Part shown: positions 14,301 through 55,005 of the stretch, piece after piece
Numbering within the stretch: the stretch's first letter is position 1
How the letters are laid out: each line of letters starts with the position of its first letter
Assembly (NCBI GenBank): GCA_037501455.1
Contig: CM074864.1
Span: 30,902,001-30,966,000, forward strand
Direction of reading: 5' to 3'
Source: Lantana camara
Taxonomy: Eukaryota > Streptophyta > Magnoliopsida > Lamiales > Verbenaceae
Length of the DNA stretch: 64,000 nt
Position numbers and translations under genes: made by a program
Notes under the pieces: model-generated
The model's database searches: none
Told to the model about the DNA's origin: nothing
The model's input: only the letters and a program-made list of their open reading frames with translations

Positions 14301-15122
14301 CGGTGGCCGGGTCTTGCAAGCCCGTCCACCACCCGGAGGAAGAAGGAGTATATGAATGATTATGATCATGTATTTATGAGCACAAAAGATTTATGTATGA
14401 TAATGAATTATTGAGTAATTAATTATGATTACACGAGGAGTAGGTTGGAGATTATGCACGCCCACTCGCCGGGCCATAAACCCTTATGAACATTTATGAA
14501 CAATTATGAATGAATATGAACGTCGTAATCCCGTTGATGTTTTCTTTTGGTTTAACCACTTGGTAAAATTCTTATCAAACTTCACACGGGATTAGGGCTT
14601 GCATGTATGTGTTTAATTTATGCGATATTATATATTTTTGCCCCGTTTTTATACCCACTAGTCTCTTTTAGACTGAACCAGGTTGTTTTCAGTTGTTTTG
14701 TGCAGGAATAGGAGTGCTAGGCAGGAATACAAGTCGTCTAGGTCTTGCATTTATGTTTAGCACTTCCTTTTGTCTCATATTCATACTCTTATTGGTATTT
14801 TGTATATGATCATAGTTTATGCTTGGAGCGTTATGATTTTTGTAGGCCATGAGTGCCGTTGAATTATGGAATGCTTTTGTATATCTATTTTTGGAGCTTG
14901 GTGGCTCACTGTATATATGCTTGGTTATTCTTGCTTCCGCGTATTATTTTAACTCTGATTTTATGATTCTTGAACTGATTGGTTTAAGGGTTAGTCCCGC
15001 CTAGCATAGCGTGTGTGTTGTGTCCCCATTTGCCGTGGATTTAGCACGTGTATGGACTTCCATTTCGTATACGGGTCGGGTCCCGGTGCGGGGGATGTGG
15101 TACCTCACGCTCGGGTGCTACA
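11345..15122 (+). repeat. Tekay-1 3' LTR
   Basis: 3778-bp partner of 2828-6580. It keeps a block near 12003-12045 (CGGATTCGAGTTCCGTCAAC and following bases) that the 5' LTR lost, has a shorter C run (about 14060) and shorter AT runs, and carries scattered substitutions. A donor-like site lies at about 12370 and palindromes at 13081-13102 and 13115-13136. One arm of the long-range inverted repeat has a G-to-A change (about 14720). It ends GGGTGCTACA and is followed by the GTTGT duplication. Confidence 0.95.
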
Positions 15123-20455: not shown

Positions 20456-20457
20456 CT

Positions 20458-22203
20458 TGTTGGAAAAACGGAATCAGAAAGCAGCCGAAATCTTAAAATT
20501 TTCCAACGAAAGGATCGAAAGTCACAATCATGAATCTAAATTCGTAAGGTAAAGAAACTTACTTTTCAATAATCTTTCTTGAAGCGTTTTAAGCCACCCA
20601 AGAATGCTCTTCTCGCGGCTTGATCCCCTCTCCTTGGTAAAGCTCGAATCTTTAAAAACTTCTAACTTGAAGCTCTCTAGAGATAGTCCACCAACTTGAC
20701 TACAATCTAACTAGTAAGGATGCTAGTTCTCTAGTTAGTGTTTAGGCTTAACCTAGGGTTTATGTGATCTTGGAGAAAGGATGGTGTTCAACATATGAAC
20801 CAAGAAGAATCGATCAATCTCTAAGGGGAGCTCGAGCTCCCCTATATATAGCTTGAGAGGGGCGACCGAACCTTGTCCTTTTGGACTAAGGATTTGGTCC
20901 CTCTCTCTTATTACTTGATCATCAAGTAATTCCAAACCTTGATTTTGAATTCTAATTCAAATCAACTTTTAAGAGAGCTAAAATATCCAAAACCCTTTTG
21001 GATAATATTATACTTTATTTATTAATAAATAAATAACTTATTTATCTAATTAATTAATTCATAATTAATAAAATAGATTAATTTCTCCAAAATAAGACTT
21101 TTATTTTAATATAAAAATTAAACCAAAGTATATTAAATAATTAACACATTAATTATTTAATACATAAACAATATACACGTGTCCCCAAGGACACGTGCCA
21201 ATCATGTGAACCACACATGTGTTTCACACGTGTGGAACCCTCTTGGTATGATCAACTCGTTTAATTATTTTAAAGCCTTAACTTATGTAACCAAGTTGTT
21301 GTGTGTGACCCTCTAGGTTCTCAATTCAATTAGTAGTAACCCTAATTAATTAGTTCACAAATTAATTAATCAGTTCACAGATTAAACGACCATAATCTAG
21401 CAACAGGTGTTTAACCCCTAGCTGAATTGGAATGTCTCGATTCGACAGAACCTTTAAGGCATTGATTCATGTGAGATACAATCCTCCTACTTACTATCTC
21501 TCAACCAAGATCTAGGGTAAGGGAATAATCAGAACCCTAATAATCTGGTCTTAAAACTAAGTGCATTTCATATCTATTTGATCTCAATCCAAGAAACCCT
21601 TTTCTTGATGTCTTGATCTATTGCCTTGGCCAAGGACTCCATATGGCATATGAATGACTTACACAATAAGAGATCACCTTGAAAATGCAAGTATAGGTCC
21701 TTTCTTGATTCTCATTCACTTTCATGAATCTTTTGTGCAGCCCCACCATAAGCCTTGAATCAGTTGTCTAAAGCGACACCCTTTAAAGCTTATACCTAAG
21801 ACTACAGAGTTAACTCATAAAGTGACATGGAACCTCAAGTCTAAGGATCAATTAATCACATCAATGACTCGTGAGATATTTCCTAATCTGGAAGTTTCCA
21901 TTTCCTGAAATAGAAACTTCCTTTCCCGTTTAGGAATCTTCTCACACGGGGCACCTCAGTGAACTTACTTATGGAAGTAAGCACCCTCATGCATCACGCA
22001 CGCATCAACTATACACTTTGCACCTCCATGAAACAAGATGGTCCTTCTTAAGGGCGTGATCCCACAAGCAAGCCTTAAAGGAGTCAGGTTGACACTCCCA
22101 CTGTCTGTAGGACTCATCAGCTTGGAGTATTTTACTAATCATGACTTATGTGAAATAGGGCTCGTTTTATGAACCATTTCACCTAAATGGTAGAGTCCTA
22201 AAG
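20458..22203 (-). repeat. copia-1 5' LTR, main part
   Basis: Same sequence as 658-2577 up to the LARD-1 insertion; the last bases TAAAG (22199-22203) are repeated at 38300-38304. TATA box and palindrome at 20825-20852, ACGTG cluster at 21174-21235. Confidence 0.93.
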
Positions 22204-24051
22204 TGTAGCACCCGAGCACAAGGTACCACATCCCCGCACCGAGACCCGACCCGAATATGAAATGGACAATCCATACCCGAGCTAGATCACGGTGAATGGG
22301 GACATACGCACTCGCTAAGCTATGCGGGAGCTAACGTTCGCAACCAAAGAGACAGTAAAACGAAAATATTACGAATGCGGAAGCAACGTACATACATATA
22401 GAACAAGATAACAAAAGAGCAACGGGTTCAACTAGCATAGGTACCTAATCCCGAAAATCAATAAAATCATAAAACTTCAAATCCAGATTCTTTCTATTCC
22501 TGTAAGCTTGTCCTGAATTCACGATAATAGTAATGATCAATACAAGTCATACATTCTCTAAAGCTTAAACAAATCATGATTCATTATGCACATGGACTGA
22601 CTCTGACCTAATCGAACAATAGAATAAACAGGACTTCCCGCCTAGCACTCCAAACCTGCAAGAACACTGAAAACAATCCGGGTTCAGTCTATATGAGACT
22701 GGTGGGTATAAAAATGAGGCATAAATAGCATATACAACAACATTTAACATTCACATGCAAGTTATAATCCCAATTGAGGTTTTTAGAGCATTTTCCCAAG
22801 TGGGTAAAATAAAGAAGTCATCAAAAGGGATTATAACGTTCATTCTTCATTAGGTCGTTTGTGGCCCGGCGAGTGGGCGTGCAATATCTCCAACCAACAC
22901 CTCGTGTAGTTCATTAAACATTCATTCTTTCTTTCTTTCTTTCATGCATTACATTCTTTTGTGCACATTCATGAACATTTACAGCTTCTTCCTCCGGGTG
23001 ATGGCCGGGTGATCGGCCCGAACCATCCATTCATTGACCAAAAGGGGAACATGACTCCCCAGATGGCACTCAGCATCCATTCCTCGCTAACTCCTAACGA
23101 GGTCTGGTTACGCCGTTCATTGGTGGGACTAGTGTGAGGGTTCACCGTCAGGCCATGCCTCCTCGGGTCACCACTCACACCAAGTCCCTGGGCCCCATTC
23201 TGTGCATAACATTCATTCTTTTCTCGCCAAAACATTTGGTAGGTTCATAAAAAGAAAGGCTTTACGTTGAAATCATTTACTCTTAAAAAGGACTCTATAT
23301 ACATATAATAGTTTTAGCCGAAATCTTTACACGTTGGGAGTATATAGGGTCATTTATCTAATTAGTAGAGAAACCCACCTGTACGCCTCTTACCAACAAT
23401 ACCAAGAAGAAAGGAGACTCGAAAGTGTCCTATGAACCCGGCATCTCCGCCCTGGAGAAAACTATACAAAGGACAACGTAACGTGTTCGTGAGACTCAAG
23501 ACTCCAAATGAATCATATAAGATGCACGACATGCAATGAATATGTTATGAATGCATAAGAGATAATATTATGTAATGAACATGTTCATGTGCACGATTAA
23601 TGCATTTAAATCATATAAACAAGTCATTCATTCGTTCAAGGAAGCGTTCATATTCATTTAAGTTCAATCCTTACACATTTCATAACAATTCAATACAAGA
23701 ATTCAAATAACGGTCATATCAAGTACTATAACACGTTTACAATTATAGAATAGACAAATAATTACATTCAATTCATGATCGAAAATTAAATAGGAACACA
23801 AAATAGGTAACAATTTAATTCTATAATTCAAATAAATAATTCATACATATATAATATAAATATATACATTCCACATGTAAGAATATAGATATATATACAT
23901 ATACATACACATGCATGCATGCACTACATATAATACTACAATATAATATGCATATATACGTGAACACATGCATGCCTTTATATAATATATTCACATATAC
24001 ACAATATTAGACATAGCAAGCTACTACATGCATGCAAGTATAATTATACTA

Positions 24052-24089
<38 letters not shown>

Positions 24090-25807
24090 GTATAAACACA
24101 AAATAAGAAATGTACGTAGAAACAAATTCAAGTTAAACACAAAAGCAGCAGTCACTGTTCATCCCCAAACTCAGCAAAAATCTGGTAGCGGGCACGACCG
24201 GAAAATGCCTTTCTACGGTCGCGGGAGCGACCTTGAACTACAGGTCGTGATGAAGGAATTCCAGTCCCTGTTCTCTCATCATATTTGCAGCAGCAGTAGA
24301 GGACTTCTTCAAGCTTCAAAGCAGCAACAAACCAACCTCTAAAGGCAAGGAAAAACGGAACCAAGCATGCACCAAACACAACACAAACGCACGTAACAGC
24401 AACAAAAGACACAACAGTAGTCATGGAAGCAAATTCATTCCCAAAAGCTTCAAAATACACGTTTTCAGTCATGGTGGAACCACACACACCTCACATAAAT
24501 CAAATAAAAGTTCAAGAATGTCTAAAGGATGCTAGAGAGATCATATTTCTTTCCTCAAACCTCAAGAAATCTGGAAATTTAACAATGAATTCAAGAAATG
24601 GATTTATGCCCTAACTATTCATTCATGTCTTCTAATCTCCAAGAATTCATGCTTAAAATTAGGGATGAATAGATCAAAATGACCACAATTGAATGTATAT
24701 TACCACCCTAAGCTTACCTTGTGGATTGGATGAAGTTTGAAGGAGATTTGAGCTTGAATCTCCAAGGTTTGGCAAGAGCTACGGGACTGACTGGAAAACA
24801 GGGGGTGTTTGGCTCAATTTCTCCAAATGTGAGGGTTTGGTTCGGTTAGGGTGAGTAAAGGCAGGTAGGGGGTTGAGTTAGGGTTCCAAGGAATCAAACC
24901 ATGGTTAATTTGGTCAAGGTTTGAATGAGATATGGCTCTTTTAGTAAAATGTGGTAGTTTATCATTCGTGTCATGTTTCGGTTGAATTTCGGAGGGTCAA
25001 ATGCTCTTAGAAAAATACGAGGCTAAGTTCATTAAACTAGAATTTTTGTTACGAGTTCATCGAAGTTGACGAAACTCAAATCCGAGTTTCCTAGCTCAAG
25101 ATATCACATACGGAACCAAGGGTGCACTAATTGATCGTTAGCCCCCGATTTGGTTCCACAATTCAAATTAAATTCGTTAACACGTAAAACGAGATCGAAA
25201 ACATGAAACGAGCATACATACATGTTTATAATACATAAATGTACAACGTAATAAATTTTTATGAATTTTCGATATCAAATCATATAAGAACGATGCACGT
25301 TTATATCACTCATAAGCCATGTATAAACATATTCAAAGAATTTCATAATATAAAACAAAATTTAAAATTCATGATTAAATATAACTTAAGTGCACTATTT
25401 TAATATCATTAGTTCAAATTCCTTTTTAATTGGATAACAACATGAACGGATCATATATATCTATAAATTAAAATGTACACATTTATGTCAAATGCATAGA
25501 TTTCTCACAGTTTAATTTAAAATTCAAATGCATGATCTAATACCATTTAATTTAAAATCGCTTGCATGATTGATATTAAATATAATAAATTGCATGAATT
25601 CATATATATATAATTAAACAACTTGTACTACGTTTAATATATATAAATATATTTATATAGGTATATTTAGTATTAATAACATTAAAATATGATAATTAAC
25701 ATTTAAAAATATAAAATTAAATATATAAAACACTTATGAACAATTAGTTTGCGTAAATTGGTAAACACATACGTCATATTAAAATACGGAAAAGTTGGGG
25801 CGTTACA
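22204..25807 (-). repeat. LARD-1 3' LTR
   Basis: 3604 bp, plus-strand TGTAGCACCCGAG... to ...GGGGCGTTACA. It contains a TTTC-type microsatellite (about 22925-22945), a TA microsatellite (about 24056-24085), a GGTCGC-GGGA-GCGACC hairpin (24217-24232), a donor-like site on the sense strand (about 24711-24721) and the TCCCGCCTAGC arm (22636-22646). No gene seen; a 111-codon hydrophobic frame on the sense strand (24152-24487) has a copy in the other LTR but is not convincing. Confidence 0.92.
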
Positions 25808-25843: not shown

Positions 25844-25865
25844 ACTACTCGCCTGAACAAATAAT

Positions 25866-26027
25866 GAGAGATTCCCCGTCTCTCACAAGCAACAAGGAGA
25901 GAGCCCCATCTCTCGAACAACAATGAGAGAACCCCGTCTCTCGCAAGCAAACAGAGAGCGCCCCGTCTCTCAAACAAAAATTATAGAATCCCCGTCTCTT
26001 ACGAACAACGAGAGCACCCCGTCTCTC
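25866..26027 (-). repeat. six-unit hairpin array before the LARD-1 PPT
   Basis: Six copies of a GAGAG...ACGGGG...CTCTC-type inverted repeat (sense strand, for example GAGAGACGGGGTTCTCTC), starting at 25866, 25897, 25925, 25954, 25984 and 26010, spaced 26-31 bp. Loop bases after GGGG vary while the arms are kept, except for the fifth unit. The TRG array units have three copies each at the same place. Confidence 0.8.
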
Positions 26028-26240
26028 AACCAAAAAAATAAAGCAAGGAAGTCTCCGATACCCCCAAGCAACACACGCGAAACCATAATTAAATTCACGT
26101 AAGATACCAAAAGCAGGTAATAGATATCATCCATGTTGATTATCAATTACTCCAATTAATTTAACATGATAAGGAATCAAAGCACTTAACATGAAAATTA
26201 TTCAAGTTAAATTTGCATGGATGCATGTGTCATGGATGCT

Positions 26241-26291: not shown

Positions 26292-26487
26292 TGTAGCACC
26301 CCTATACGTAGGGATACCACACCCCCGCACTATAGGCCGATCCACCTATGGAATGGACAATCCGTACATGAACTAGCCTATAGCGAACGGGTGACAAATA
26401 AAAGTAAAGACGAGCTAGGCGGGACTAAACCCCAAAGCAACACAAAACCAAGGCATATAAAATTAAAAGCGGAAGCATTAATTCATA
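26292..26487 (-). repeat. TRG-minus 3' LTR remnant
   Basis: Matches the first 196 bp (plus-strand order) of 29527-32144, up to ATTAATTCATATA. It then passes directly into gag sequence, so one deletion removed most of the LTR, the PPT and the gag 3' end. Confidence 0.85.
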
Positions 26488-27239
26488 TAACCGGTACCTT
26501 CTTCTTTCCGGACCCGATTCGCATTTACATTTTGCATTCCCCTCTCGCGAACACCTTCCCATGCTTGCACTAGTACTCTTCCACCCCTGGTCGATTTCCC
26601 TCGTAGCCTTGAGCAAGTATCTATGTGATGCTCGTCACTCCCACAGTAGAGACATAATCCCAACCGTTTCCTACAGCCATCATAAGTGTGGTTATCATGT
26701 CCACAATAACTGCAAAGAAGTTTCCCAGAAGATGTTGTTGAAACTGGGTTACGCGAAGTTCCCGAACTCGATCCAAGTGGTTGCTTCTTTTTCTTGTGAG
26801 ACCTTTCCAGAGGTGTCGGGGTATGATAAGAGATAGGCCGCTTTCCTTTGCTAGAAAACGGTCTCGACTTCGAATCTGAAGCCTGCCCGGGGTGAGGATT
26901 AGACCTTCTTGCCTCCAACAAGGTGGTACCTCGATCCTTTTCTTGGGAGCCACTTGGAGTGAGTTTCCATACTCTTTTAATTTTCTTGAGCTGTGATCCG
27001 GTGGAATCCTTGCTTCCTTCAAAGGGTCGTGAGGATGGTTGGTTTTGAAATTCCCTAAATATCATCGAAATTTGGCCCGGCTGTGATGCTAAGTCCCGCG
27101 ACTCGGAAGAAACATACTCTTTTATCTTTTGATCTACTAAACGAACCAAAGACTCGAAAAACTCCTGAGGCTGAACCGGAGGGGGTAAATGCGGAGAGAC
27201 CTTAGGTGCCTGTTCCTGAGGAGGGTGGCCTTGAGACAT
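26488..27239 (-). pseudogene. gag: TRG-minus gag with internal deletion
   Basis: Starts at the ATG at 27239 (MSQGHPPQEQAPKVSP), directly after an acceptor-like TTACAG/G, the same setting as the TRG array gag. The Pro-rich N-terminus and SMIFREFQNQPSSR resemble the TRG Gag. The capsid core (the TWEVFERE region of the relatives) is missing: the frame jumps from LKKIKRVWKL to the Ser/Lys-rich linker. Two intact CCHC knuckles follow (CSYCGHDNHTYDGC and CLYCGSDEHHIDTC). Being open but coreless, it is unlikely to make a working capsid. The 3' end is fused to the LTR remnant. Confidence 0.82.
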
Positions 27240-29507: not shown

Positions 29508-29519
29508 GCTCTGATACCA
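29486..29519 (-). other. TRG-minus PBS and overlapping hairpin
   Basis: PBS TGGTATCAGAGC on the minus strand (29508-29519). The overlapping hairpin (29486-29512) has a GTAA loop, five pairs, a one-base bulge and six more pairs including G-T. Confidence 0.8.
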
Positions 29520-29526
29520 CCTCAGA

Positions 29527-32144
29527 TGTAGCACCCCTATACGTAGGGATACCACACCCCCGCACTATAGGCTGATCCACCTACGGAATGGACAATCCGT
29601 ACATGAACTAGCCTATAGCGAACGGGTGACAAATAAAAGTAAAGACGAGCTAGGCGGGACTAAACCCCAAAGCAACACAAAACCAAGGCATATAAAATTA
29701 AAAGCGGAAGCATTAATTCATATATATACATATAGGTACCATATTTATCAGCTAGATACGTACACATACCACACTAATTATCAATACATTATCATCTCTT
29801 ATATATGATCAAGTATTCCAAATGTGATAACAATAGACAGGACATGAGAAGTAGTAAAATATATACGTGATGGTACACTGATAGACTCGTGACAATGCAA
29901 GACTGGACCAGACTCCCGCCTAGCACGACTGGCTCTCAAGTACCTGAAAAGTGAAGTATCAGTCTACCGAAGACTGAGTGAGGGGCATAAATAGATATTA
30001 GCGCAATCACTTGCAAGTTATAACCTCGGGTAAGGTTTTATAATTAAAACATTAGACGTTCACAATAATAGAGAACTCGCCCGAGATTACAACTATCAAT
30101 ATTAATTACTGGTTCGTTTCATGCAATCAATCAATACATGGCCCCGGCGAGTGAGGGCGGTCTCCAACCTTACTCCCAATGAACATGAACATGCTTGCTT
30201 GTTTAATAGTCAATAGGTGATCATGCAATTCACTTATCGTGCAATCGTGCGATAGTGTACTCATATAACACGTTCATGAAATGATAATCATGCAATAACC
30301 CGAGGCGCATCCGTGGTGCCGGACTCGTCCCCAGTCTCCTTTTCCCTCTGGTTTGATGAAGGGATTGCAAGGCCCCAACATCCAATCTCATTGAGCAGAG
30401 GGTACATGAATCCCTAAGCCCGGAGCTCCTTCCTCCACTAATCTCCTAGTGGATTCAGGGGTGACCCCTAATCATGGTGAGGATAGCGCCAGAGTTACCC
30501 GTCAGCCCTTGCTTTCCCGGTTGGCTCTAGTCACTACCTTCGGGCCCAAACGTAACCGTCATGCTACTCGCCTAAACATGCATGAAACAAGACCTGACTT
30601 GCTTGCTTGCTTGCTTACTTGAACCTGGCTTGAAATGATCAATGATTTATAGAAAATATAACCGTAAATACTATTTTGGCTAAAATATCACATAAGGGTT
30701 ATACGGGTTCTATGTAACTAGCAATTAAACCTCACCTATACCGACCAAGACGAGTAGGCACGGCCTACGGGGCTTGCTCCTCGTCCCTACCCTCGTGACC
30801 TGTGCAAACACGACACTTATACATGAGACATGACCTAAAATGCCCAAAAAGTGACGAACGGCGGAAATGTATCGAGATGACCACGAAAATGCAATGTGGT
30901 ATGATAACATGTTGTTTCACATCATATTAGTGCATATTAAAGCAGTTCGGGGTCCAAGAAGTCGTCGGGTCGAGGGGCTAAAAATGTAATTTTATGCAGT
31001 CACTTTTGTTCTGTCAGCGAGATGGGAACGGCCGTTCCGGACTCCTTTGTAAAATGGGAACGGTCGTTCCCATAACCCCAAAAGCGCACCCACGTTTTTC
31101 CCCCTTTAAAGCGCGCGGGAGCTGGGAACGGCCCTTCCGGCACAAGGCCAAAATGGGAACGGCCGTTCCCATGCTCGGCCGCCTAAATCATTTGAAAAGG
31201 TGGGAACGCCCGTTCCCACAATGCCTTGAGGCTGGGAACGGTCGTTCCCTGTTTCTGCAAATATGAAGAACAGAGAAAAACAGGGGAGGCTGTGGGAATG
31301 CAAACAAAGCAACCAAAAATCCATTTCAATCAACCAATTCATGCTTTTCTGGAAATATGATGCATATAGGTTCAAGAAATAATATTCTAGCACTTAAACA
31401 CTCAAAACACACAAGATCATCAAGAATTCATGATTCCACACTCATGATCACACTTTGTCATTCAAGCTAAATATTCAAGAATTCAAGCTATAACTCATGC
31501 CATAATTCATGAAATAATCACATAATCATGCTTCCAACTCCAACTAACTCACCTAGCATATAATTCCTAAACCCTAGCTCAATCAAAGATGCTCAAGAGA
31601 CCATATGTATCCACTTACATGCTTTTGAAGTTAAAGAAATGAATGGAGAAGATGATGATGGATGCTTGAGCTCAAAAGCTTGGATTTCCTTGAATAACTT
31701 GGACGATTGGATGAAATCTCTTCTCCCCCTTTTCTACGTGAAGAACCGAGAGCAAGGAAGATGGATATGTTGGTGAATTTGGAAGCAAATGATCAAGAGA
31801 AGCTTGGAGATGCAATATACCGTGATATTTGGGAAATATGTAATATTTGCGATTAAACCCTCCAAGTTATTTAAGTTAAGCAATTAAGGATCTCAAGTTT
31901 GGAAAGTGATCACTTTAGTCCTCAAAGGTTTTCATGCAATTTGGTCCCCAAGTTTAAAAGAATGGATATATAGGGCCAAGTTGACAATTAAAACATTTTC
32001 GGTAATTAATTTCATGAAATAAACATTTTCAAGTTTTAAGATAAATTATAAGTTTAGTATGAATTTCATGAAAGTATTATAAAATATAATTTATAAAATT
32101 ATTTTAGACATAAAATATTAATAAATGAAAATCGGGGCGTTACA
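29527..32144 (-). repeat. TRG-minus 5' LTR
   Basis: 2618 bp, plus-strand TGTAGCACCCC... to ...GGGGCGTTACA. It contains the GCTAGGCGGGA/TCCCGCCTAGC inverted repeat (29649-29659 and 29914-29924), a CTTG microsatellite (about 30598-30620), a six-copy GGGAAC...GTTCCC palindrome cluster (31024-31249) and a GTAAGTGG donor-like site on the sense strand (about 31609-31620). No gene seen. Confidence 0.92.
31024..31249 (-). repeat. six-copy GGGAAC-NNNN-GTTCCC palindrome cluster
   Basis: Copies at 31024, 31054-31073, 31124, 31153-31172, 31200-31219 and 31234-31249. The centre is GGCC, GGTC or GCCC. Three copies extend to 8-4-8 with flanking pairs AT/AT or GT/AC, a paired change. The third has a broken arm. 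Confidence 0.85.
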
Positions 32145-34815: not shown

Positions 34816-34823
34816 CTTAAGGA

Positions 34824-37800
34824 TGTAGCACCCGAGCGCAAGGTACCACATCCCCCACACCGAAACCCGACCCGAATATGAAATGGACAATCCATACCCG
34901 AGCTAGATCACGGCGAACTGGGACATATGCACTCGTTAAGCTAGGCGGGAGCTAACGTTCGCAACCAAAGAGACAGTAAAACGGAAATATTACGAATGCG
35001 GAAGCAATGTACATACATATAGAACAAGATAAGAAAAGAACAACGGGTACAACTAGCATAGGTACCTAATCCCGAAAATCAATAAAATCATAAAAGTTCA
35101 AATCCAGATTCTTTCTATTCTTGTAAGCTTATCCTGAATTCACGATAATAGTAATGATCAATACAAGTCATACATTCTCTATAGCTTAAACAAATCATGA
35201 TTCATTATGCACATGGACTGACTCTGACCTAATCGAACAACAGAATAAACAAGACTTCCCACCTAGCACTCCAAACCTGCAAGAACACTGAAAACAATTT
35301 GGGTTCAGTCTATATGAGACTGGTGGGTATAAAAATGAGGCATAAATAGCATATACAACAATATTTAACATTCACATGCAAGTTGTAATTCCAATTGAGG
35401 TTTTTAGAGCATTTTCCCAAGTGGGTAAAATAAAGAAGTCATCAAAAGGGATTATAACGTTCATTCTTCATTAGGTCGTTTGTGGCCCGGCGAGTGGGCG
35501 TGCATTATCTCCAACCAACACCTCATGTAGTTCATTAAACATTCATTCTTTCTTCCTTTCTTTCATGCGTTACATTCGTTTGTGCACATTCATGAACATT
35601 TACACCTTCTTCCTCCGGGTGATGGCCGGGTGATCGGCCTGAACCATCCATTCATTGACCAAAAGGGGAACATGACTCCCCAGATGTCACTCAGCGTCCA
35701 TTCCTCGCTAACTCTAATGAGGTCCGGTTACACCGTTCAATGGTGGGACTAGTGTGAGGGTTCACCGTCAGCCCATGCCTCCTCGGGTCACCACTCACAC
35801 CAAGTCCCTGGGCCCCATTCTCTGCATAACATTCATTCTTTTCTCGAGTTTTAGCCGAAATTTTACACGTTGGGAGTATATAGGGTCATTTATCTAAATA
35901 TTAGAGAAACCCACCTGTACGCCTCTTATCAACAATACCAAGAACAAAGGAGACTCGAAAGTGTCCTATGAACCCGGCATCTCCGCCCTGGAGAAAACTA
36001 TACAAAGGACAACGTAACATGTTTGTGAGACTCAAGACTCCAAATGAATCATATGAGACGCACGACATGCAATGAATATGTTATGAATGCATAAGAGATA
36101 ATATTATGTAATGAACACGTTCATGTGCACGATCAATGCATTTAAATCATATAAACAAGTCATTCATTCGTTCCAGGAAGCATACATATTCATTTAAGTT
36201 CAATCCTTACACATTTCATAACAATTCAATCCAAGAATTCAAATAACGGTCATATCACGTACTATAACACATTTACAATTATAGAATAGACAAGTAATTA
36301 CATTCAATTCATGATCGATAATTAAATAGGAACACAAAATAGGTAACAATTTAATTCTATAATTCAAATAAATAATTCATACATATATAATATAAATATA
36401 TATATACATTCCACATGTAAAAATATAGATATATATACATATACATACACATGCATGCATGCACTACATATAATACTACAATATAATATGCATATATACA
36501 TGAACACATGCATGCCTTTATATAATATATTCACATATACACAATATTAGACATAGCTTGCTACTACATGCATGCAAGTATAATTATACTATGGGAGATA
36601 TATATACATATACACGTATGAACACAAACATAAGAAATGCACGCAGAAACAAATTCAAGTTAAACACAAAAGCTGCAGTCACTGTTCATCCCAAAACTCC
36701 AAAATCTGGTAGCGGGCACGACCTCGAACTACAGGTCGTGATGAAGGAATTCCAGTCCCTGTTCTCTCATCATATTTGCAGCAGCAGCAGAGGACTTCTT
36801 CAAGCATCAAAGCAGGAACAAACCAACCTCTAAATGCAAGGAAAAACGCAGCCAAACATGCCCCAAACACAACACAAACGTACGTAACAGCAACAAAAGA
36901 CACAGCAGCAGTCATGGAAGCAAATTCATTCCCAAAAGCTTCAAAATACACGTTTTCAGTCATGGTGGAACCACACACACCTCACATAAACCAAATAAAA
37001 GTTCAAGAATGTCTAAAGGATGCTAGAGAGATCATATTTCATTCCTCAAACCTCAAGAAATCTGGAAATTTAACAATGAATTCAAGAAATGGATTTATGC
37101 CCTAACTATTCATTCATGTCTTCTAATCTCCAAGAATTCATGTTTAAAATTAGGGATGAATAGATCAAAATGACCACAATTGAATGCATATTACCACCCT
37201 AAGCTTACCTTGTGGATTGGATGAAGTTTGAAGGAGATTTGAGCTTGAATCTCCAAGGTTTGCCAAGAGCTATGGGATTGACCGGAAAACAGGGGGTGTT
37301 CGGCTGAATTTCTCCAAATTTGAGGGTTTGGTTCGGTTAGGGTGAGTAAAGTCAGGTAGGGGGTTGTGTTAGGGTTCCAAGGAATCAAACCATGGTTAAT
37401 TTGGTCAAGGTTTGAATGAGATATGGCTCTTTTAGTAAAATGTGGCAGTTTAGGCGTCCGTGTCATGTTTCGGTTGAATTTCGGAGGTCCAAATGGTCTT
37501 AGAAAAATACGAGGTGAAGTTCATTAAACTCGAATTTTTGTTATGAGTTCAGCGAAGTTGACGAAACTCGAATCCGAGTTTCCTAGCTCAAGATATCACA
37601 TACGGAACCAAGGGTGCACTAATTGCTCGTTAGCCCCCGATTTGGTTCCACAATTCAAATTAAATTCGTTAACACGTCAAACGAGATCGAAAACATGAAA
37701 TGAGCATATGGACATGTTTATAATACATAAATGTACAACGTACTAAATTTTCATGAATTTTTGATATCAAATCATATAAGAACGAAGCACGTTTATATCA

Positions 37801-38299
37801 CTCATAAGCAATGTATAAACATATTCAAAGAATTTCATAATATAAAACAAAATTTAAAATTCATAATTAAATATAACTTAAGTGCCTATTTTAATATCAT
37901 TAGTTCAAATTCCTTTTTAATTGGATAACAACATGAACGGATCATATATATCTATAAATTAAAATGTACACATTTATGTCAAATGCATAGATTTCTCATA
38001 GTTTAATTTAAAATTCAAATGCATGATCTAATACCATTTAATTTAAAATCGCTTGCATGATTGATATTAAATATAATAAATTGCATGAATTCATATATAC
38101 ATATAATTAAACAACTTGTACTACGTTTAATATATATAAATATATTTATATAGGTATATTTAGTATTAATAACATTAAAATATGATAATTAACATTAAAA
38201 ATATAAAATTAAATATATAAAACACTTGTGAACAATTAGTTTGTGCAAATTGATAAACACATACGTCATATTAAAATACGAAAAAGTTGGGGCGTTACA
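34824..38299 (-). repeat. LARD-1 5' LTR
   Basis: 3476-bp partner of 22204-25807. It is shorter because of indels: one near 35847 and one near 36722 that removes the 24217-24232 hairpin. It has a shorter TA run. It is followed by TAAAG and the rest of the copia-1 LTR. Confidence 0.92.
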
Positions 38300-38304
38300 T
38301 AAAG

Positions 38305-38481
38305 TCATCAGGATTAGGGGAGTTCTCATACATGCACAGCTAAAGTAAACGCATACCAAACAAGAGCATATAAAGAAGTGTTGCCTCAATTCGTTATTTT
38401 ATTCAAAGATTGTCTGTGATTACATTAAGGAAAAGTACAAAGCGGATATACAATCGGCTTTCTAGGGAACTATTCCTAACA
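38305..38481 (-). repeat. copia-1 5' LTR, distal part
   Basis: Last 177 bp (plus-strand order) of the copia-1 5' LTR after the LARD-1 insertion, ending TTCCTAACA before the GTGGT duplication. Together with 20458-22203 it makes a 1923-bp LTR. Confidence 0.92.
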
Positions 38482-38486
38482 GTGGT

Positions 38487-39150
38487 TCATCAGACGAGCA
38501 CTATATCACATAAGTCATGATTTGAAATCACTCCAAGCCGATGAGTCCAAAAGACAGTGGGAGTGTCAACCTGACTCATTCGAGGCTTGCTCGTGTGATC
38601 ACTCCCTTAAGAAGGACCACCTTGTTTCATGGGCATGTATACATGGGGATGCTTACTTATTCTAAGTAGGTACACTAAGGTGTCCCGTGTGAGAAGATTC
38701 CTAAATGGGAAAGGAAGTTTCTATATCTAGAAAATAAAACTTCCAGATTAGGAAATATCTCAGGAGTCATTGATGTGATTAAGTGATCCTTAAACTTGAG
38801 GTTCCATTGATACTTTCTAAGCTAACTCTGTAGTCTTAGGTGTAAGCTTTAAAGGGTGTCTCCTTAGACAACTGATTCAAGGCTTATGCTGGGGCTGCAC
38901 AAGTGGCACATGAAAGTATATGAGAATCAATAAAGGACCTACGCTTGCCATCTAGGAGTCCTTAGCTAAGGCAGTGGATCAAGACATCAAGAAAAGAGTT
39001 TCTTGGATTGAGATCAAATGGATATGAAATGCACTTAACATTAAAATCAAGATTATTAGGGTTCTAATTATTCCCTTACCCTAGATCTTGATTGAGAGAT
39101 GGGACGTAGGAGGATTGTATCTCGTATATGTCAATGACTTAAAGGTTCTG
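38487..39150 (+). mobile_element. copia-2 LTR, middle piece
   Basis: Reverse complement of the corresponding part of the copia-1 LTR (for example AAGACAGTGGGAGTGTCAAC and CCCTAGATCTTGATTGAGAG), so plus-oriented. Interrupted by the solo LTR at 39151. Confidence 0.85.
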
Positions 39151-42100
39151 TGTGACGCTCCGTTTCTCGATCAAGGTAAGTTTTGTTACGAGAGTGAACG
39201 ATATACCTTTTTATGCATGAATCATGTGAATTTATTCCTTAAGTGATCGATGTACTTGAACTTATGTGGAATATATGATTTGTATGAAATACGTGACTAA
39301 TTGATGTGTTAATTATGTGCTCGTATTGTTCTTATTGAGCTTTGATAGCATGCTTTATGATTAAACAAAACAATGTGCTTATTTGGACATTAAAGCATAA
39401 ATTAGGGACTAAATGGTAAATTTCTTGTCTGAGCCTGGAACTGGATATAACTTAATGAAATTGTGTAGATAATCCGATTACGAGTTCATGGGTTCTTGAA
39501 TCGCTGGATTTGGAGTTCGGACGAAGAAGTTATGGTCATTTTACGAAAAGTCAACCATTTAAGAAGACTTGTGACCCAATTCCGAATTTAACCCAATTTC
39601 AGACCGAATTTCACTTATAACCGCTCCAATTGACCCGGTTCGCAACCCAAATAGCTGACCCAATTTCATAAATCAGATTTTAACACCCCCCAAACTCATA
39701 TTACATTAAAATAAAGATTCAAACCCTCGCTCCCTCACTTTTCTCTCAAGACCATCCATATTCACTCAAGAACACCTTCAAACATTTTCAAGATACAAGA
39801 TTGGGAGTTGAAGCTAGAGATTCAAGGTTGAAGAACTCGACTTTCTCTTCGATTTCCAGCTCTTAAGGTAAAGTTTATGTGCTTCTTGTGGGGTTTATGT
39901 TCTTGAAGCTTTTAAACTTGAATTTGAACTAGGGTTCTTGTGTGTTGGATTGAATTCAAATTTCTTGTTGGAAATGTGTTTATTTTGATGTTGGGAACAT
40001 TTTGGTATGAGAATTACTTGCTTTTATGCTCTTATGTGAAATCCACCATTGTTGACCTTTGAAGCTTCTTGGAGAATTCTTGCATGTTCATGTTCTTGTA
40101 TGTTTTTGCTTGATTTCGTGTTAGATTCTTGTTCCTTGAGCAATTTCATGAAGAATGTGATAATTTCCTTTGAGTTTCTTGCATGATTGAGGATTTCACC
40201 ATTTTTGAGTTTGAAGCTTTGAATGCTTAAAGAAGATGATGTTCATATGTGTAAATTGTCGGATTCTTGATGCATATTCATTCTTAGATGTTCATATCAT
40301 GATACTTGATGTCTAAATTCGTTTATTCATATTGTATAAGCTTTAGAGCATGATTTAGGAGTGTTTAGAGCCTAAAATTCACCATTTACAAGCATATGTT
40401 CGTAATTCGTATTTGTAACAGTAGCATGTCAAACGCCCGTGTGAAAATTGCATTGAAACACCAAACCCCCATGTGAAAACCCACTGTCCCTAAAATTCAC
40501 CATTTACAAGCATATGTTCGTGATTCGTATTTGTAACAGTAGCATGTCAAACGCCCGTGTGAAAATTGCATTGAAACACCAAACCCCCATGTGAAAACCT
40601 ACTGTCACGATTTTCCAGGGCCAAACGCCCGTTTGATGTTTACTCAGGAGGGTCAAAAGCCCGTTTGGGTGCTCTCGGGTCAAAATTTTGAGTTTTTGTG
40701 ATTTTGTTCGTTTTGCTTCGTTTTCACTTCCTTTGCACTTCTTACACACCTAATATGATATATATGACTTGGAATCATGTTTATGTGCATTTTAATGTCT
40801 TGTATACCTCTATTATAGTAATAATGTGCTAAATATGGTTTACATGTTGTTAATTTGCATGTCTTATGACTTGAAAGCTTGTTATACGACTCGTACGACT
40901 TCATTTGATTATAATTGCTAAGTTATGCTATACTTGGACATTCATTGCATATCATAAGCATGTTTACTCTTTCTTGAAGCCGTGCATCGTCTTAATTGGT
41001 TTCTAGTTGTATCTTACCTTTGTTAGTACGTTTGTCTTGTTAGGTGGTGAGTCTCCGGTCGAGTAGCTTGTTGCTCGTGGTTGGCTTTCGAAGTTCTTGG
41101 TGAAGGTGAGGAGTTATATATATATAAAATGTTTTCAAAACTGTGGACACATACGGCTTATCATATATGATGATTTAAACTCCCGTTTTCAAAACGTATA
41201 TGTAGGCTTTATAAGCCGAGTTTTGTGAGCTTTGCCCGTATTATGGATATTTGCTTATGGAAAACGGTTTACAAGTAAAACTTAAGCTTTGGTATATGGG
41301 ATAGATACCCAAAATGGTTTTGGAACTTTTATTGAATATTATGTATGTGTGAGTTGTGTAGCGAGGTTATGATGTACCTTGCAAGGACGCTTGCTTGGGG
41401 AATTGTTATGTGAGCTCGGGGATGGTGGTGAGTGATATTCCGGGAAGGCAAGGGCCGACGGATCTCCTCATACAAAGTTCCCACTATGGACAAGTTTACT
41501 AAGACTCCGAGGAGGTTTCGGGGTTGAAGTCTTCTTGGAGAGAGCTAGGTTTCATGGACCGAATTCTCTATGTTATGGATGATTGGGGGCCGTACACCCT
41601 CATCATCAACGGTGTAATGGATGGCTTGATTTGATTTCTTGGCTTGGGAAGATCGGTTGGAGTGCTCGTTCTCGCCGAGCCGGTTTTGTGTGGTTTATGA
41701 TCCATATTGTCCAAGACTTGCATTTACTTTGAAAATGAGTTGGAACATGGACGTTGTGTTTTGAGCATACATTGAACCCTTATGCTATTTATTTATGTAA
41801 ACCTTTCCTCACCGGTTCCTTTTGAGCTTACTACCTTCACCCTTCGTGTCCGCAGGTTGCATTTTGGAGTCGAGCTAGGCGGGGTCGTTTGGAGTCTTGT
41901 CTAGTCATCTAGTTTGTACTCGTTTACGCTTGTAACGTACTTTGTTATTTGTGGCTTATGTTATGATTTGAATTTTATGGATTTAGTATATATGATGTTG
42001 TGTCTAGTTTAGACCGTGCCGATCGCTTAGGATGATTTTACATTTTCGCACTTGAGCAGTTTGTGTTGGACTATGATGGTCACTTAATTGTTGAACGAAT

Positions 42101-42303
42101 GATTCTTATGCACTGTTATGTTTTGATTTAAGCTTCCGCGTACTTGCATTTTATTTACTCACTTTGTGAGTCTAGTACCGCCTAGCTAGGTTGTCCGTTT
42201 GTCACCGCTTGCTTCGGTCGCAGTGGGTATATGTATAGCAATTCTATATGCAAGCTAGGTTCGTAGCGCGGGATAGGTGTGGATGCCTCGTCGGGGCGTT
42301 ACA
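39151..42303 (+). mobile_element. gypsy solo LTR
   Basis: 3153 bp from TGTGACGCTCC to GGGGCGTTACA with near-matching flanks TTCTG (39146-39150) and TTATG (42304-42308) and no internal region, as expected for a solo LTR left by LTR-LTR recombination. Feature order (donor-like TTAAG/GTAAAG at about 39868, CAAAC-GCCC-GTTTG motifs at 40430-40680, AGCTAGGCGG/CCGCCTAGCT at 41873-41882 and 42178-42187) shows plus orientation and Tekay-like kinship. A 118-bp tandem duplication lies at 40373-40608. Confidence 0.82.
40373..40608 (+). repeat. 118-bp tandem duplication in the solo LTR
   Basis: Two near-identical units, 40373-40490 and 40491-40608, each starting TAAAATTCACCATTTACAAG and each containing a TCAAACGCCCGTGTGA motif of the palindrome type. 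Confidence 0.85.
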
Positions 42304-42584
42304 TTATGTCAAATCGAGACATTCTTATTCAGCTAGGGGTCAAACACCTGTTGCTAGACTATGGTCGTTTGATCTGTGGACTGATTAATTAATTAGAGAA
42401 TTAATTAATTAGGGTCACTGCTAATTGAATTAAGAAGCTAGAGGGTCACACACAACAACCCGGTCACGTGGGTTAAGGCTGGAATCGATTAAACGAGTTG
42501 ATCGAGCCATTAAGTGAATGGTGGGGTCCACACGTGTAAGTCAAACGTGTAAGGACACATGTAGTCACGTGTGTGTATGTGTAT
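42304..42584 (+). mobile_element. copia-2 LTR, right piece
   Basis: Continues the copia-2 LTR (CAGCTAGGGGTCAAACACCTG, ATTAATTAATT repeats) up to an ACGTG cluster at 42531-42575. It is then cut by the minus-strand gypsy LTR at 42585. The remaining LTR and internal region are missing. Confidence 0.82.
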
Positions 42585-45404
42585 TGTAGCGCCCCAAGCG
42601 GTGGGCGCCACATCCCCGCACTATAACTCGACAAGTGCAATGAAACAAAGACTCCGCACACGTGCCAAGTCATAGCGAACGGGAGACAAAACAAAAACTC
42701 CAGGCCTAAGCTAGGCGGTACCTAACCCTGTACGAAGAAAAGATGCAACACAGGACAGCAGAAGCAATGCAGAAGAACTAACTTTCAAAAACTTTCTTAC
42801 ATAAAACATACAGTGCAAAACAGACATCAAAATCAACTACACGGGTTTGACTAATCCGGTAAACCTGTCCTAACCTGTCCCGAAATTCCAAACATTCAAA
42901 TCATAATTGCAAACATGCACAAAATAAATCTTATACAAAATTTACCAATTATAATTCAGAACAAAATACTTAACACACTTAAACAAACAAATGCAGACTC
43001 AACAGACACAACACACTGCCGCCTAGCACGAACTCCAACGACCTGAACCTGCAACTAATGACATCAAAGGGGGAGGGGTCAATCAAAGACTGAGCGAGGG
43101 GCTACCCATACACACCTACATATAAATAGAGAGCAACATATAGTAGAAGCAACGTTCGTGAAACCGGGGTTAGTTTTTGCACGCCAAAACTGTTTCCCGT
43201 GATAGTATATATATATAGGGTGACTTATCAAAACAGAACGAATAAAATTTAGCTTATACATAACTCAAAACATACGTTCAAACTCATGCGGACTTAGCAT
43301 ACATATCGGAACATAACTTATTAGGTTAATAGCAAATCCAATTTTATCTTAACTTAAGACTCTACCCCCGTTTCACGAACTTATAACCGACAAACATAAC
43401 GAATCTCGACTGGTGCGAGTACACATCCAACCAACTCCATAGCAAAGCAAAACGAAGACAAATCAAAAAGCATAAACCAATCCAACCTTTCTCCGTTTGG
43501 GGAAGAGAGCGGCCACTCTCAACCCCCATACTTATCTTATCTTATAATGGTGGAGTTGGGGGATCCTACCCCGATCCTGACGGGTTATACCGCAGACATA
43601 TGAGACTTGCTTTCCCCTCGACCTCCCGAGGATGAGCTAAGCCTCACCTTGGTGGAGAAGTGCACAGGGGTTGCAACAGGCGGCCCCATGGCCGTCCCGG
43701 GTCTCCCTTACCCACAACTCCGGGGCCCATCACACATATAAACACACACATCTCGGAAACTTAACCCACCACATACAGACTGACAGACATATATCATGTA
43801 TATCGTACTTATCATATCGTACGTACATACCACACCTACTCTTACCTCAAAATCATATCAAAACGGAGCTTAAGCATACATAGGTTCATACATAGCATTC
43901 ATACTTTCAAACTTATGAGAAAACCATCAAAGTACATATTTCACACATATCTACATATATATAAGGCTTATAAATCGCACACATTCGAAAACGAGCACAT
44001 TGCGATAGGGTATAACTATATCCTAACCTCACCTGGCACCAGACAAAGCTGAAGACACAGCAAATGGTCCACCCCGGAACCTGCACGACCCACTTGTCAC
44101 CACCCTGGGTGCACCTGAACCAACTGAACACACAAAACATAACACAGAACTCAGACTCAGACTCAGACAACTACACAGAGACGCATGGCACATGCTCAAG
44201 CACTAAAAGGGATGCAATCACATAAGCAGGATTCAAGTTCATATCAATTATATGCAAAACAAAACATTAAGGCATGTTCATGTGAACAATTAATGCAAAT
44301 AAGAGAACTAAAAGGCAAGGCAAATCATATCATTTTATTTGTCACACAAACAATTCATTTAGTACATAATAAATTCAATTAACAAGGTTAATCAATTCAT
44401 ATCATGCAATTTACACATTTCAGAAAATTACATAAACCTCCCCTCTAGGTTAAACAACTAACAAATTTTACATGCTGGGACTCACATTGCAAATCAAAAC
44501 AAATCGCATTTCATATAAAAGCACGCAGTACAAGAACAATCAAATCACAAAATAGCATGCTTCGAATTTCATATAAATCACACGAGGTTACCTATCAAAT
44601 TCCAACCATACTAAGTTCATATAATTCATACATGGCATACCCAATTCGTATATCACAGAACGGATTCAATTGACAAGGTTTACCTAATTAAATTAAACAA
44701 ATTCATATATTTTCCAAAATTACACGTACACCCCTTGAAGTTAGACAATTAGCTCAATTAGACAAAACGGGATTCAAATTGCAAATCAAAGCATCAACAT
44801 ATTTCATAATTCATTGAATACATGGTTTCGTATACGTTGGAATTCATATAGATCGACAAATCAAGCAATTAACAATTTATTGCAATTAAGACAATTAATT
44901 TTAAATATTCAAATTACACAAAATAAATCACAACAAATCAACCGGACATCCGATTGACGAATGAAAAGTGGCGTTGAACTCACCACAACGAGAAGAAGAT
45001 TCTGACCGGACGCCGCCGGAATGCCACCACTGTAGTTGCCGAAATTTGATCGGACCGTCGCCGGGCCGCCGCCGAAGGTCGCCGAAAAAATCCCAAAAAA
45101 TCAACCGTGCAAGTACTCCTCGTACTCGTTCCAATTCCTCAATCAATTTCTGAAAATTTCAACCCAATCTTCTCCAATTTCGGATCTAAGAATACGAAAA
45201 CCCTCAAATCTTCAAGATCAAATTACTTCCAAACCGGTGAACGAAAATCAAATCTGCAAGAGGCATTGTCTTACCCGTGACGAGCTCTTCGAAACTCCCA
45301 TAGTGGTTACCGGAAAATATCCCCGGAGCTAGCCCCGCCGTTGCACCGCCGCTGCGCTGCGATTCGCCGCCAATTGGCTGAATCTGGAGTCGCGTGATCA
45401 AGGG
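42585..45404 (-). mobile_element. truncated minus-strand gypsy LTR
   Basis: Begins TGTAGCGCCCCAAGCGG, the plus-strand appearance of an LTR 3' end. It contains GCTAGGCGG (42710-42718) and CCGCCTAGC (43019-43027) and a donor-like GG/GTAAGAC on the sense strand near 45275. It lacks the expected GGGGCGTTACA end and instead joins TRG LTR sequence at about 45404-45410. A GC-rich part (about 44990-45400) may be its leader exon. No gene recognised. Confidence 0.7.
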
Positions 45405-45632
45405 ATGATAGTTGAAATTTGAAGAATGATAATGAAATGCATGTATATCCTATTCTCATGTTATTGTTTATGCATGGTTGTATCTAATTGAGGGTTAGTC
45501 CCGCCTAGCTAGTGGTTCATTTTCTCTTGTCACCCGTTCGCTATAGTCTTAGTTCATGTACGGATTACTCATTTCGTATGTGGACTGAGCTATAGTGCGG
45601 GGGTGTGGCATCTCAGTGTTTCGGGTGCTACA
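45405..45632 (+). repeat. TRG array, partial first LTR
   Basis: Only the last 228 bp of the LTR, matching 50119-50350 from AGTTGAAATTTGAAG on. It includes TCCCGCCTAGC (about 45497) and ends GGGTGCTACA. Confidence 0.88.
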
Positions 45633-45639
45633 TCTTAGG

Positions 45640-45673
45640 TGGTATCAGAGCCCGGTTGCAAAACCGCGGTTCT
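45640..45673 (+). other. TRG unit A PBS and hairpin
   Basis: PBS TGGTATCAGAGC (45640-45651). The hairpin 45647-45673 has a GCAA loop, five pairs, a C bulge and six pairs with one G-T. Confidence 0.82.
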
Positions 45674-45875
45674 AGTGTCGTGTCTTGTGAGTCTAAGTCG
45701 TACGGCATAGGATTATTTTGCTAATTTGAGAGCCTTGCATCTTAAAAACTTACTTGCACTTATTTTACCTTACTTGAATTCTTTGCATTATGTGTTTTAT
45801 TTGCATCTTATGACCTTAATTGTAATCATTTGCATCCACTAATCCAACATGCATATCTAGTGTCTTGATTTCAGG

Positions 45876-47026
45876 ATGCCTCGAGGTCGTCCTCGCCGTG
45901 AACGTTCTCCAGGTCATAGGAGACATCGCCTTGATCGATCCCCTAGGGTTCCTCCATATCCACCCCCTCCGGCTCAACCCCAGGATTTCTTAAATTCCAT
46001 GGTGCAACTCATAGATCAAAGGTTAGGGGATTATGTGCCTCCATCGCCGCCAACTCCTCCACCACAAAAACAGGCACCTATCTCCGCTATTTCAAAGGAA
46101 TTTCAGAATCAACATCCGTCGAGATTCCTAAAGGAAATGATATTCAATCCGAGCAATGGCTTAAAGAAGTTGAGTGTATATGGGAACATATTCCATGCGA
46201 GTCTCGGGAAAAGGCTCGGTGCACTCTTACCCTTATTCAGGGAGAAGCGTATTCATGGTGGGAGAGTACCAAAATTGTCCTTGATGCCGCCGAGGAGCAG
46301 GTTACATGGGAGGTTTTCGAGAGAGTGTTCAAGAAAAAGTTTATCCCTCCATCTTCTTGGACTCGGAGGTTGAAGGAATTTACTAAGCTAAAGCAAGGAG
46401 AAATGTCCGTTTCTGAGTACATATCCGAGTATGAAAGGTTGTCTTGCTATGCACCCAATATAGCGAGTGATGACTTTCACAAAGCTATGCAGTTCGTATA
46501 AGGACTCCGACCAAACATACAGAGAGCCTTGGAAGCGGTTAACACGAGTACTTGGGTCAAGGCTAGCATGAAAGCATTGAAAGTGGAAGACTCGGTAATT
46601 ACGAGGAGGCCTATACCTTATCCCGGAGAGGATTCTACTAATGGAAAGAGGACTGTTTCATATCATACATCGTCATCTAAGGAAGGGCCACAGAAGAAAA
46701 AGAATCGATTATTTGGATCGGGTTCGGGAGTTTCACATACTTCCTCTTCGGGAAAGCCTCTTTGCACCTATTGCGGAAGCGATGCACATACTTACGACGG
46801 TTGCAGAAGGCGTTCGGGCTTATGTTTCCGATGTGGAAGTGATGATCATCAAGTGGACACGTGTCCGAAGCGGCGAGAGTTGGCTGCCGGGGGACAGAGG
46901 CCACTTGTTCAGGCTCGTGCATATGCTCTGGAGAGAGAGGTGCAAAATGTGAATGCTCATCCGAACGTGGTAGCCGAAGGTATCAACTATATTTATGGCA
47001 TAATCAACGGTGAATGGTATACCTAA
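45876..47026 (+). pseudogene. gag: TRG unit A gag
   Basis: Starts at the ATG 45876 behind an acceptor-like TTTCAG/G: MPRGRPRRERSPGHRRHR, a Pro-rich stretch, then the gag core. A one-base deletion near 46132 (against units B and C) shifts the frame through the core (TWEVF, TKLKQGEMSVSEYISEYERL in the original frame), and a TAA (46499-46501) replaces Gln. From 46529 the frame is open: linker, CTYCGSDAHTYDGC and CFRCGSDDHQVDTC knuckles, and the end INGEWYT with TAA at 47024-47026. Gag ends where the protease starts in Tekay-1, so this family looks gag-only by design and has since decayed. Confidence 0.88.
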
Positions 47027-47201
47027 CCATGCATATCACGTGCATCATGGATTTTATTGTTGTTGTACTTACTTTCTTGTTAGTTGTAACTTGGTTACAT
47101 ATGAGTGAGGAGTATGTGATTAACGTGATGCTACTTGCCCTATGTGACATTTATGCGAATGTTTTACAATTTGTTCTTTTGCATCGTTGTTTTGGTGTGT
47201 T

Positions 47202-47279
47202 GAGAGACGGGGTTGTCTTTCGTTACTTGTTTGAGAGACGGGGTTCTCTCACTCTGTGTTTCAGAGACGGGGAACTCTC
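47202..47279 (+). repeat. three-unit hairpin array, TRG unit A
   Basis: GAGAG-ACGGGG-type inverted repeats starting at 47202, 47233 and 47262, the same motif as 25866-26027. The middle unit is GAGAGACGGGGTTCTCTC; the first and third have weakened arms. Confidence 0.8.
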
Positions 47280-47491
47280 ATCATTAGTTGCTTTTTGTTT
47301 AAACTTGTTATAGTGGAAGATTAGGTTCTCTCTTTGGTGTGTAGATTCCGATGAGTGAGGGTCGTAATTTGACAGTATTGGAAGGACTTTGTTGAATTAA
47401 GATCTCTTCCGAACTAATCCCTGACGGGGAGTTGCTAACCCGCGTGGGATGAACACGGTAGAGTTACCAAATTCTAGGAATTCGAGACAGT

Positions 47492-47541
47492 GAATCTGGG
47501 GACCAGATTCTTCTAAGGGGGGGGGGGGGGGGGGGGAGAGT
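47492..47541 (+). other. TRG unit A PPT with 20-G run and hairpin
   Basis: Hairpin GAATCTG-GGGAC-CAGATTC (47492-47510), then TTCTAA and 20 consecutive G (47517-47536), then AGAGT at the LTR. Unit B has nine G. Confidence 0.82.
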
Positions 47542-50350: not shown

Positions 50351-50357
50351 TCTTAGG

Positions 50358-50391
50358 TGGTATCAGAGCCCGGTTGTAAAACCGTGGTTCT
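50358..50391 (+). other. TRG unit B PBS and hairpin
   Basis: PBS 50358-50369. The hairpin 50365-50391 has a GTAA loop and a T bulge at the same place as in the other copies. Confidence 0.82.
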
Positions 50392-50593
50392 AGTGTCGTG
50401 TCTTGTGAGTCTAAGTCGTACGGCATAGGATTACTTTGCTAATTTGAGAGTCTTGCATCTTAAAAACTTACTTGCACTTATTTGACCTTACTTGAATTCT
50501 TTGAATTATGTGTTTTATTTGCATCTTATGACCTTAATTGTAATCATTTGCATCCACTAATCCAACATGCATATCTAGTGTCTTGATTTCAGG

Positions 50594-54998: not shown

Positions 54999-55005
54999 TC
55001 TTAGG

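Follow-up and report, generated by a model that had tools for sequence, protein, structure and literature searches.

Six 16-bp palindrome units lie at positions 31024–31249 within a 2618-bp Ty3/gypsy LTR of Lantana camara (29527–32144, minus strand). It is somewhat probable that these units form an array of sites bound by a dimeric DNA-binding protein, located in the regulatory part of the LTRs of Tekay-type chromoviruses and TR-GAG-like elements. The reading is based on the abundance of the palindrome in the genome relative to its backward control, the spacing of the palindromes in pairs, and the independent variation of the two halves of each palindrome around a constant AA. From these results we infer that a protein binds the palindromes, that the protein is a dimer and that it affects transcription from the LTR. 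The protein would probably be a host transcription factor.

The window is the whole 64-kb stretch of DNA that was analysed (G000:C10:30902001–30966000 of a 1.271-Gb genome). According to self-comparison and motif search, several Ty3/gypsy-type elements are present within it, as shown in Table 1. An iMet-type motif, which we take to be the primer-binding site (PBS), was detected after each 5' LTR among the named elements. By Pfam, the ORFs of Tekay-1 correspond to gag, RT, RNase H, the integrase zinc domain and a Tf2-type SH3 domain, together with a weak, sub-threshold chromodomain (E 1.2e-4). Those of Tekay-3 correspond to gag, protease, RT and the integrase zinc domain, and TRG-plus has a gag match at 50894–51217. 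A TR-GAG element consists of two LTRs with gag as the sole ORF. In TRG-minus only 198 bp of the 3' LTR are left, and neither gag nor any other Pfam domain was found in the ORFs tested; its putative assignment as TR-GAG follows the similarity of its LTR to that of TRG-plus. Otherwise, the names Tekay and TR-GAG are those of the preliminary description, which was made from sequence only. TRG-plus appears to be a tandem array with shared LTRs (45400–56003; LTR end-internal-LTR-internal-LTR-internal), the layout that recombination between LTRs would produce.

Table 1. Elements, palindrome arrays and candidate exon in the window (positions in bp)
Feature	Position	Strand	Description
Tekay-1 LTRs	2828–6580; 11345–15122		Self-comparison/motif search
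Tekay-2 LTRs	34823–38299; 22204–25807	−	Self-comparison/motif search
TRG-minus 5' LTR	29527–32144	−	2618 bp, TGTAACG...GCTACA; self-comparison and motif search
TRG-minus 3' LTR	26292–26489	−	Only the last 198 bp left
TRG-minus PBS, iMet type	29508–29519		Motif search
TRG-plus LTRs, tandem	47542–50350; 52252–54998		
Tekay-3 5' LTR	56006–59488		
Palindrome pair 1 (element sense)	31202–31249	−	Units 31202–31217 and 31234–31249, 32 bp apart
Palindrome pair 2 (element sense)	31124–31170	−	Units 31124–31139 and 31155–31170, 31 bp apart
Palindrome pair 3 (element sense)	31024–31071	−	Units 31024–31039 and 31056–31071, 32 bp apart
TRG-plus array	48480–48602	+	Arms GTACCC; centres 48487.5, 48519.5, 48563.5, 48594.5; steps 32, 44, 31; last two units imperfect, placed by eye
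Tekay-3 array	57512–57637	+	Arms TCTCCCC and GTACCC, order A-B-B-A; centres 57520.5, 57552.5, 57594.5, 57626; steps 32, 42, 31.5
Tekay-1 5' LTR array	4463–4587	+	Arms GACAC/GTGTC; centres 4470.5, 4503.5, 4542.5, 4576.5; steps 33, 39, 34; unit at 4503.5 imperfect, placed by eye
Tekay-2 3' LTR pair	24184–24232	−	GGTCGCTCCCGCGACC and imperfect GGTCGTGCCCGCTACC, 33 bp apart; by eye
Candidate leader exon	30736–30799	−	Y-rich CAG, 64 nt, then AG|GTGAGGTTTA; splice signals from sequence only

The six units of the TRG-minus LTR start at 31024, 31056, 31124, 31155, 31202 and 31234 on the plus strand, with steps of 32, 68, 31, 47 and 32 bp. The element sense is the minus strand, and the array is located at about 896–1121 of the 2618 LTR positions. 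The centres of the units are, in order, GGCC, GGTC, GGCC, GGCC, GCCC and GGTC, the three types given in the preliminary description. Five perfect inverted repeats (arm ≥6, GC ≥4) are present in the 226-bp cluster, whereas the maximum among 2,000 dinucleotide shuffles was three, reached once. Thus, the six-copy cluster reported there is real. The arms had been described as constant; both are exact in four of the six units, whereas the unit at 31024 ends with GTTCCG and that at 31124 has CTTCCG.

The palindrome is very frequent in the genome. GGGAACNNNNGTTCCC occurs 40,342 times, against 21 occurrences of the backward control, and the junction pattern gave 26,836 hits. On contig C1, 17 stretches surrounding the first hits were chosen because they bear palindromes; in 16 of them (the exception is L014) the LTR start was located, and the array begins about 820–980 bp downstream. 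A second start-like match in L013 would put the array 1074 bp after the LTR start. In a blind sample of 18 stretches of 10 kb, GGGAAC clusters were detected in three (L025, L027 and L033), each in a stretch matching Tekay/TRG-like LTRs. L035 and L036 of the same sample contain palindrome clusters of other sequence.

The units are mostly arranged in pairs, a feature that is new in the present analysis. The C1 stretches, the window and the blind sample together yielded 24 arrays with three or more units. These are not independent, since ten belong to the L005 type and five (L011, L012, L019, L027 and the window) to the TRG-minus type; in the 24 arrays, many of them related, the start-to-start step is 31–33 bp in 57 of 100 steps. 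This is by far the commonest value, and the remaining 43 steps scatter from 21 to 95. Most arrays alternate, with a 32-bp step, a looser gap and a 32-bp step again; the alternation is broken in L014, L015, both arrays of L025 and the end of L033. A strict 10.5-bp phase common to every unit was rejected in view of the other steps and of the GACAC pair at 34 bp. An inverted orientation of pair 1 relative to pairs 2 and 3 gave a weak signal and is not claimed.

Pairs of perfect units were also searched for genome-wide. With start spacings of 20–49 bp, 16,818 GGGAAC pairs were found against none for the control, and 8,096 of them are at 31–33. Among the first 50 pairs listed of these 16,818, which all come from C1 and in part represent the two LTRs of one element, 26 are at 32, 13 at 42–44 and 11 at 47–48, with none elsewhere. 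GTACCC pairs occur at 94 places (control 0); 50 were listed, with 41 at 32, two at 31, three at 43 and four at 45. GACAC pairs occur at 22,537 places (control 0), and the 50 listed comprise 31 at 34, three at 32–33 and 16 at 40–49. These results indicate that the spacing is close to three helical turns in each family, with a characteristic value that is not identical from one family to the next. The exact helical phase is therefore not universal, as the GACAC spacing is 34 and not 32. An automatic scan of centre distances gave 31–34 in four of 11 distances for four families with other arms, and in 24 of 98 for the GGGAAC families; it gave nothing for Tekay-2, whose pair was placed by eye. To our knowledge, no paired geometry has been described for dyad boxes of the Tnt1 box I type.

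Five families with different arms (GGGAAC, GTACCC, CTCCCC, GACAC and GGTCGC) each have a pair at 31–34 bp, one of them placed by eye. Copies of the arrays are also found in the partner LTRs: the second LTR of TRG-plus carries the array at 53159–53248 without one unit, and the 3' LTR of Tekay-1 carries it at 13080–13136 with a step of 34. In the 5' LTR of Tekay-2, one unit is missing through a deletion near 36720, as judged by eye. The maximum number of palindromes per 250 bp was not reached in any of 200 shuffles for both LTRs of Tekay-1, both LTRs of TRG-plus, Tekay-3 and the TRG-minus LTR. The two Tekay-2 LTRs are not enriched, 27 and 25 of 200 shuffles reaching the observed maximum. In 38300–42600, the possible place of a solo LTR, no palindrome cluster was found. 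The preliminary description had proposed comparable clusters in other LTRs of the window; this stands against shuffles for Tekay-1 and TRG-plus, but not for Tekay-2. It had also proposed that position and shape are kept while the sequence turns over. That statement holds, and it is sharpened here to a pair spacing conserved across GGGAAC, GTACCC and GACAC. As a separate observation, the whole Tekay-3 array appears to be an imperfect inverted duplication around TGATGCAGAGAGTTTCTGCATCA.

The palindromes may instead be a structural or mutational by-product, spread by template switching or short-hairpin conversion, with the spacing inherited from duplicated modules. Related families have homologous spacers in pairs 2 and 3, the Tekay-3 array resembles an A-B-B-A duplication, and some units are deleted in one LTR copy relative to the other, all as this explanation would have it. 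However, one step length predominates over the scattered others, although labelling steps of 31–33 bp as within a pair is partly circular. The pair also recurs in all five families with their different arms, and the half-sites change independently around a constant core. We consider such a by-product unlikely.

The preliminary description compared the units to the kissing-loop dimerization signals of RNA. In this explanation, or with any other RNA-structure signal (dimerization, packaging or retention of unspliced RNA), each palindrome is a hairpin, and the loops pair between genomes. A half-site test was performed with 84 unique 28-mers obtained from 124 units. In the GGGAAC family the half-site consensus is [T/C]GGAA[C/G]GG. 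The AA at positions 4–5 is identical in 168 of 168 halves, but the units were gathered at up to three mismatches to the motif, so the near-invariance of the core is partly an effect of the search. Positions 2–5 are too constant and give almost no information. At the variable positions 1, 6 and 8, the two halves pair in 52, 56 and 58 of the 84 units, against 56.0, 54.2 and 61.3 expected from randomly matched halves. There is no excess of pairing at these positions; within a unit, one half changes independently of the other, so that no stem is preserved there by compensating substitutions. Most mispairs at stem position 1 (23 of 32) and at stem position 6 (24 of 28) are C/G transversions, which cannot be read as G.U on either strand. 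We relied on this type of mispair, because the G.U count was made with randomly oriented units and does not refer to the sense strand. Paired changes in the flanks had been noted as well. The quoted pairs are present at 31054–31073, 31153–31172 and 31200–31219, but among the 84 unique units flank position −1 is the only one that pairs clearly above expectation (39 versus 26.0, p about 0.001). This is the one result favouring symmetry as such.

The loops and the predicted fold were considered together with these results. The centre is not self-complementary in at least 26 of the 84 unique units and in three of the six units of the window. The predicted RNA fold of the array has a higher stability than those of shuffled sequences (z −5.4), which agrees with an RNA signal, as does the strength of the palindromes. 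In the minimum free energy structure, however, as read by eye from the dot-bracket string, the pairing is between units 3 and 6 and between units 1 and 2, and six hairpins are not formed. An Rfam scan of the array gave no family up to E 1. The kissing-loop reading was dropped as the best reading after the half-site test, the fold and the Rfam scan. The independent halves, the fold and the absence of an Rfam match favour a protein dimer that recognizes two half-sites.

The place of the array in the transcript also bears on an RNA role. On the downstream side of the array, a pyrimidine-rich CAG followed after about 64–73 nt by AG|GTGAGGTTTA is common to Tekay/TRG LTRs that are divergent from one another. 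This layout of a candidate leader exon is found in the LTRs of L005, L011, L013, L016 and L017 as well, and its interior differs between families. A search with the CAG...AG|GTGAGGTTTA motif did not find it in Tekay-1, Tekay-2 or L009. Upstream of the array, CAAG|GT is present near LTR position 525–580 in several LTRs; the window copy is without it. Such splice-like signals flank the array region. The array could lie within the first intron of a spliced leader, and it may then be confined to unspliced RNA. Yeast Ty3, in the available text of PMC11381356, has a 5' palindromic dimer site. The possible location in a leader intron keeps an RNA role alive, but separate RNA hairpins would not need a fixed pair spacing, and together with the results above we judge an RNA signal very improbable. 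Intron-borne enhancers would fit this location too. No conserved TATA box was identified in the LTRs compared. A CpG-island reading was not favoured, with CpG o/e at only 0.75–1.44 in five arrays and not uniformly raised.

If the palindromes are sites for a dimeric protein, each would consist of two half-sites, one per subunit of the dimer. The working module would be two palindromes separated by about three helical turns (31–33 bp; 34 in the GACAC family), a spacing that may let two dimers cooperate. Two or three such pairs would be present per LTR, with a looser gap between pairs. Different families would swap the box sequence while keeping the symmetry and a nearly equal pair distance, so that one position within the LTR may recruit different factors. 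Against the dimer-site reading, the divergence of the arms between families makes one factor reading all of them unlikely, the gaps between pairs are unphased, and the copies share ancestry. Among the factors considered, MYB3R (AACGG core), LBD (CGGAA half-sites) and E2F, we know of none that seemed to fit all the half-site variants. If the boxes do recruit dimeric factors, they would help to decide when some of the plant's most abundant retrotransposons are transcribed, and the genome would be seeded with binding sites in tens of thousands of copies. The pair geometry offers a sharp and cheap test, and the variety of arms would be a natural series on how LTRs change host factors.

The bound protein could also be a host silencing or chromatin protein, the turnover of the boxes being an escape from host recognition. 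The arms differ while the geometry is similar, and the very high copy number makes the elements a possible target of the host. However, escape should destroy the sites, yet palindromes of similar geometry occur in each family. Nothing in the present results points to repression. We regard it as quite unlikely.

The proposed dimer-site array has a known relative in the RM boxes of Sireviruses (Ty1/copia). According to the available text of Bousios et al. (2010; PMC2829016), these are family-specific palindromes repeated in the upper LTR, upstream of the TATA box and bordering CpG islands, and a regulatory role was proposed. With the exception of Tnd-1 they have a CGG-CCG core, number at least eight in each element, most of them within the upper LTR half, and in that text have no common binding factor identified. 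There they are reported as Sirevirus-specific and absent from classic retrotransposons, the comparison being with classic Ty1/copia elements. As far as that text describes them, the boxes found here share the dyad symmetry, the location within the upper LTR half and the family-specific arms. The CGG-CCG core is found in three of the five box types here (many GGGAAC, GTACCC and CTCCCC units), whereas GACAC-RGGG-GTGTC and GGTCGCTCCCGCGACC are without it, and the GACAC and GGTCGC families have no clean CGGCCG. In contrast to the RM boxes of that account, those studied here belong to Ty3/gypsy chromovirus or TR-GAG-like elements, which by the domains of Tekay-1 and Tekay-3 are not Sireviruses. They mostly number 4–6 per LTR, that is, 8–12 counting two LTRs, and form explicit pairs at 31–34 bp, pairing having been looked at in the present families only. 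The feature is best read as the Ty3/gypsy counterpart of the RM boxes, with a pair geometry that outlives the sequence. Retroviral and Ty3 dimer initiation sites, in the available text of PMC11381356, are likewise short GC-rich palindromes in an LTR retroelement. Unlike the sites described there, the present ones are repeated 4–6 times per LTR, lie more than 1 kb from the PBS, show no pairing covariation at the variable positions and often have centres that are not self-complementary. Symmetric elements in LTR regulatory DNA are also present in plant LTR promoters as dyad boxes, for example Tnt1 box I (in the available text of PMC2829016). In titles and abstract openings of the open-licence literature, no palindrome arrays in Tekay or TR-GAG LTRs were found.

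A fixed frame of two dimer sites, with the sequence exchanged wholesale between families, may perhaps mean that LTR lineages repeatedly switch the factor they recruit, and that Ty3/gypsy and Sirevirus Ty1/copia elements reached the design independently. We put this forward tentatively. LTR elements are also said, in one study, to insert into palindromes.

Several other repeats were observed in the window and in the sampled stretches. Tandem repeats of 28–30 bp with a TGAGAGA...TCTCTCA inverted repeat are present at 25856–26036, 47195–47280 and 51915–52000 of the window, at most about 350 bp upstream of a 3' LTR in Tekay-2 and TRG-plus alike; the stretch 25856–25942 matches 51922–52012 in reverse. 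A pair of repeat copies (657–2401 and 20457–22204) holds the palindrome AGGGGAGCTCGAGCTCCCCT at 1024–1043 and 20824–20843. L009 has a similar palindrome, GAGCTCGAGCTC, in a stretch common to L035 and L036, and the clusters of L035 and L036 in this shared stretch are rich in CACGTG. A CCGG-type cluster at 4303–4448 of L036 (AACCGGTTTTGGACCGGTT and GACCGGCCGGTC) resembles the Sirevirus RM boxes.
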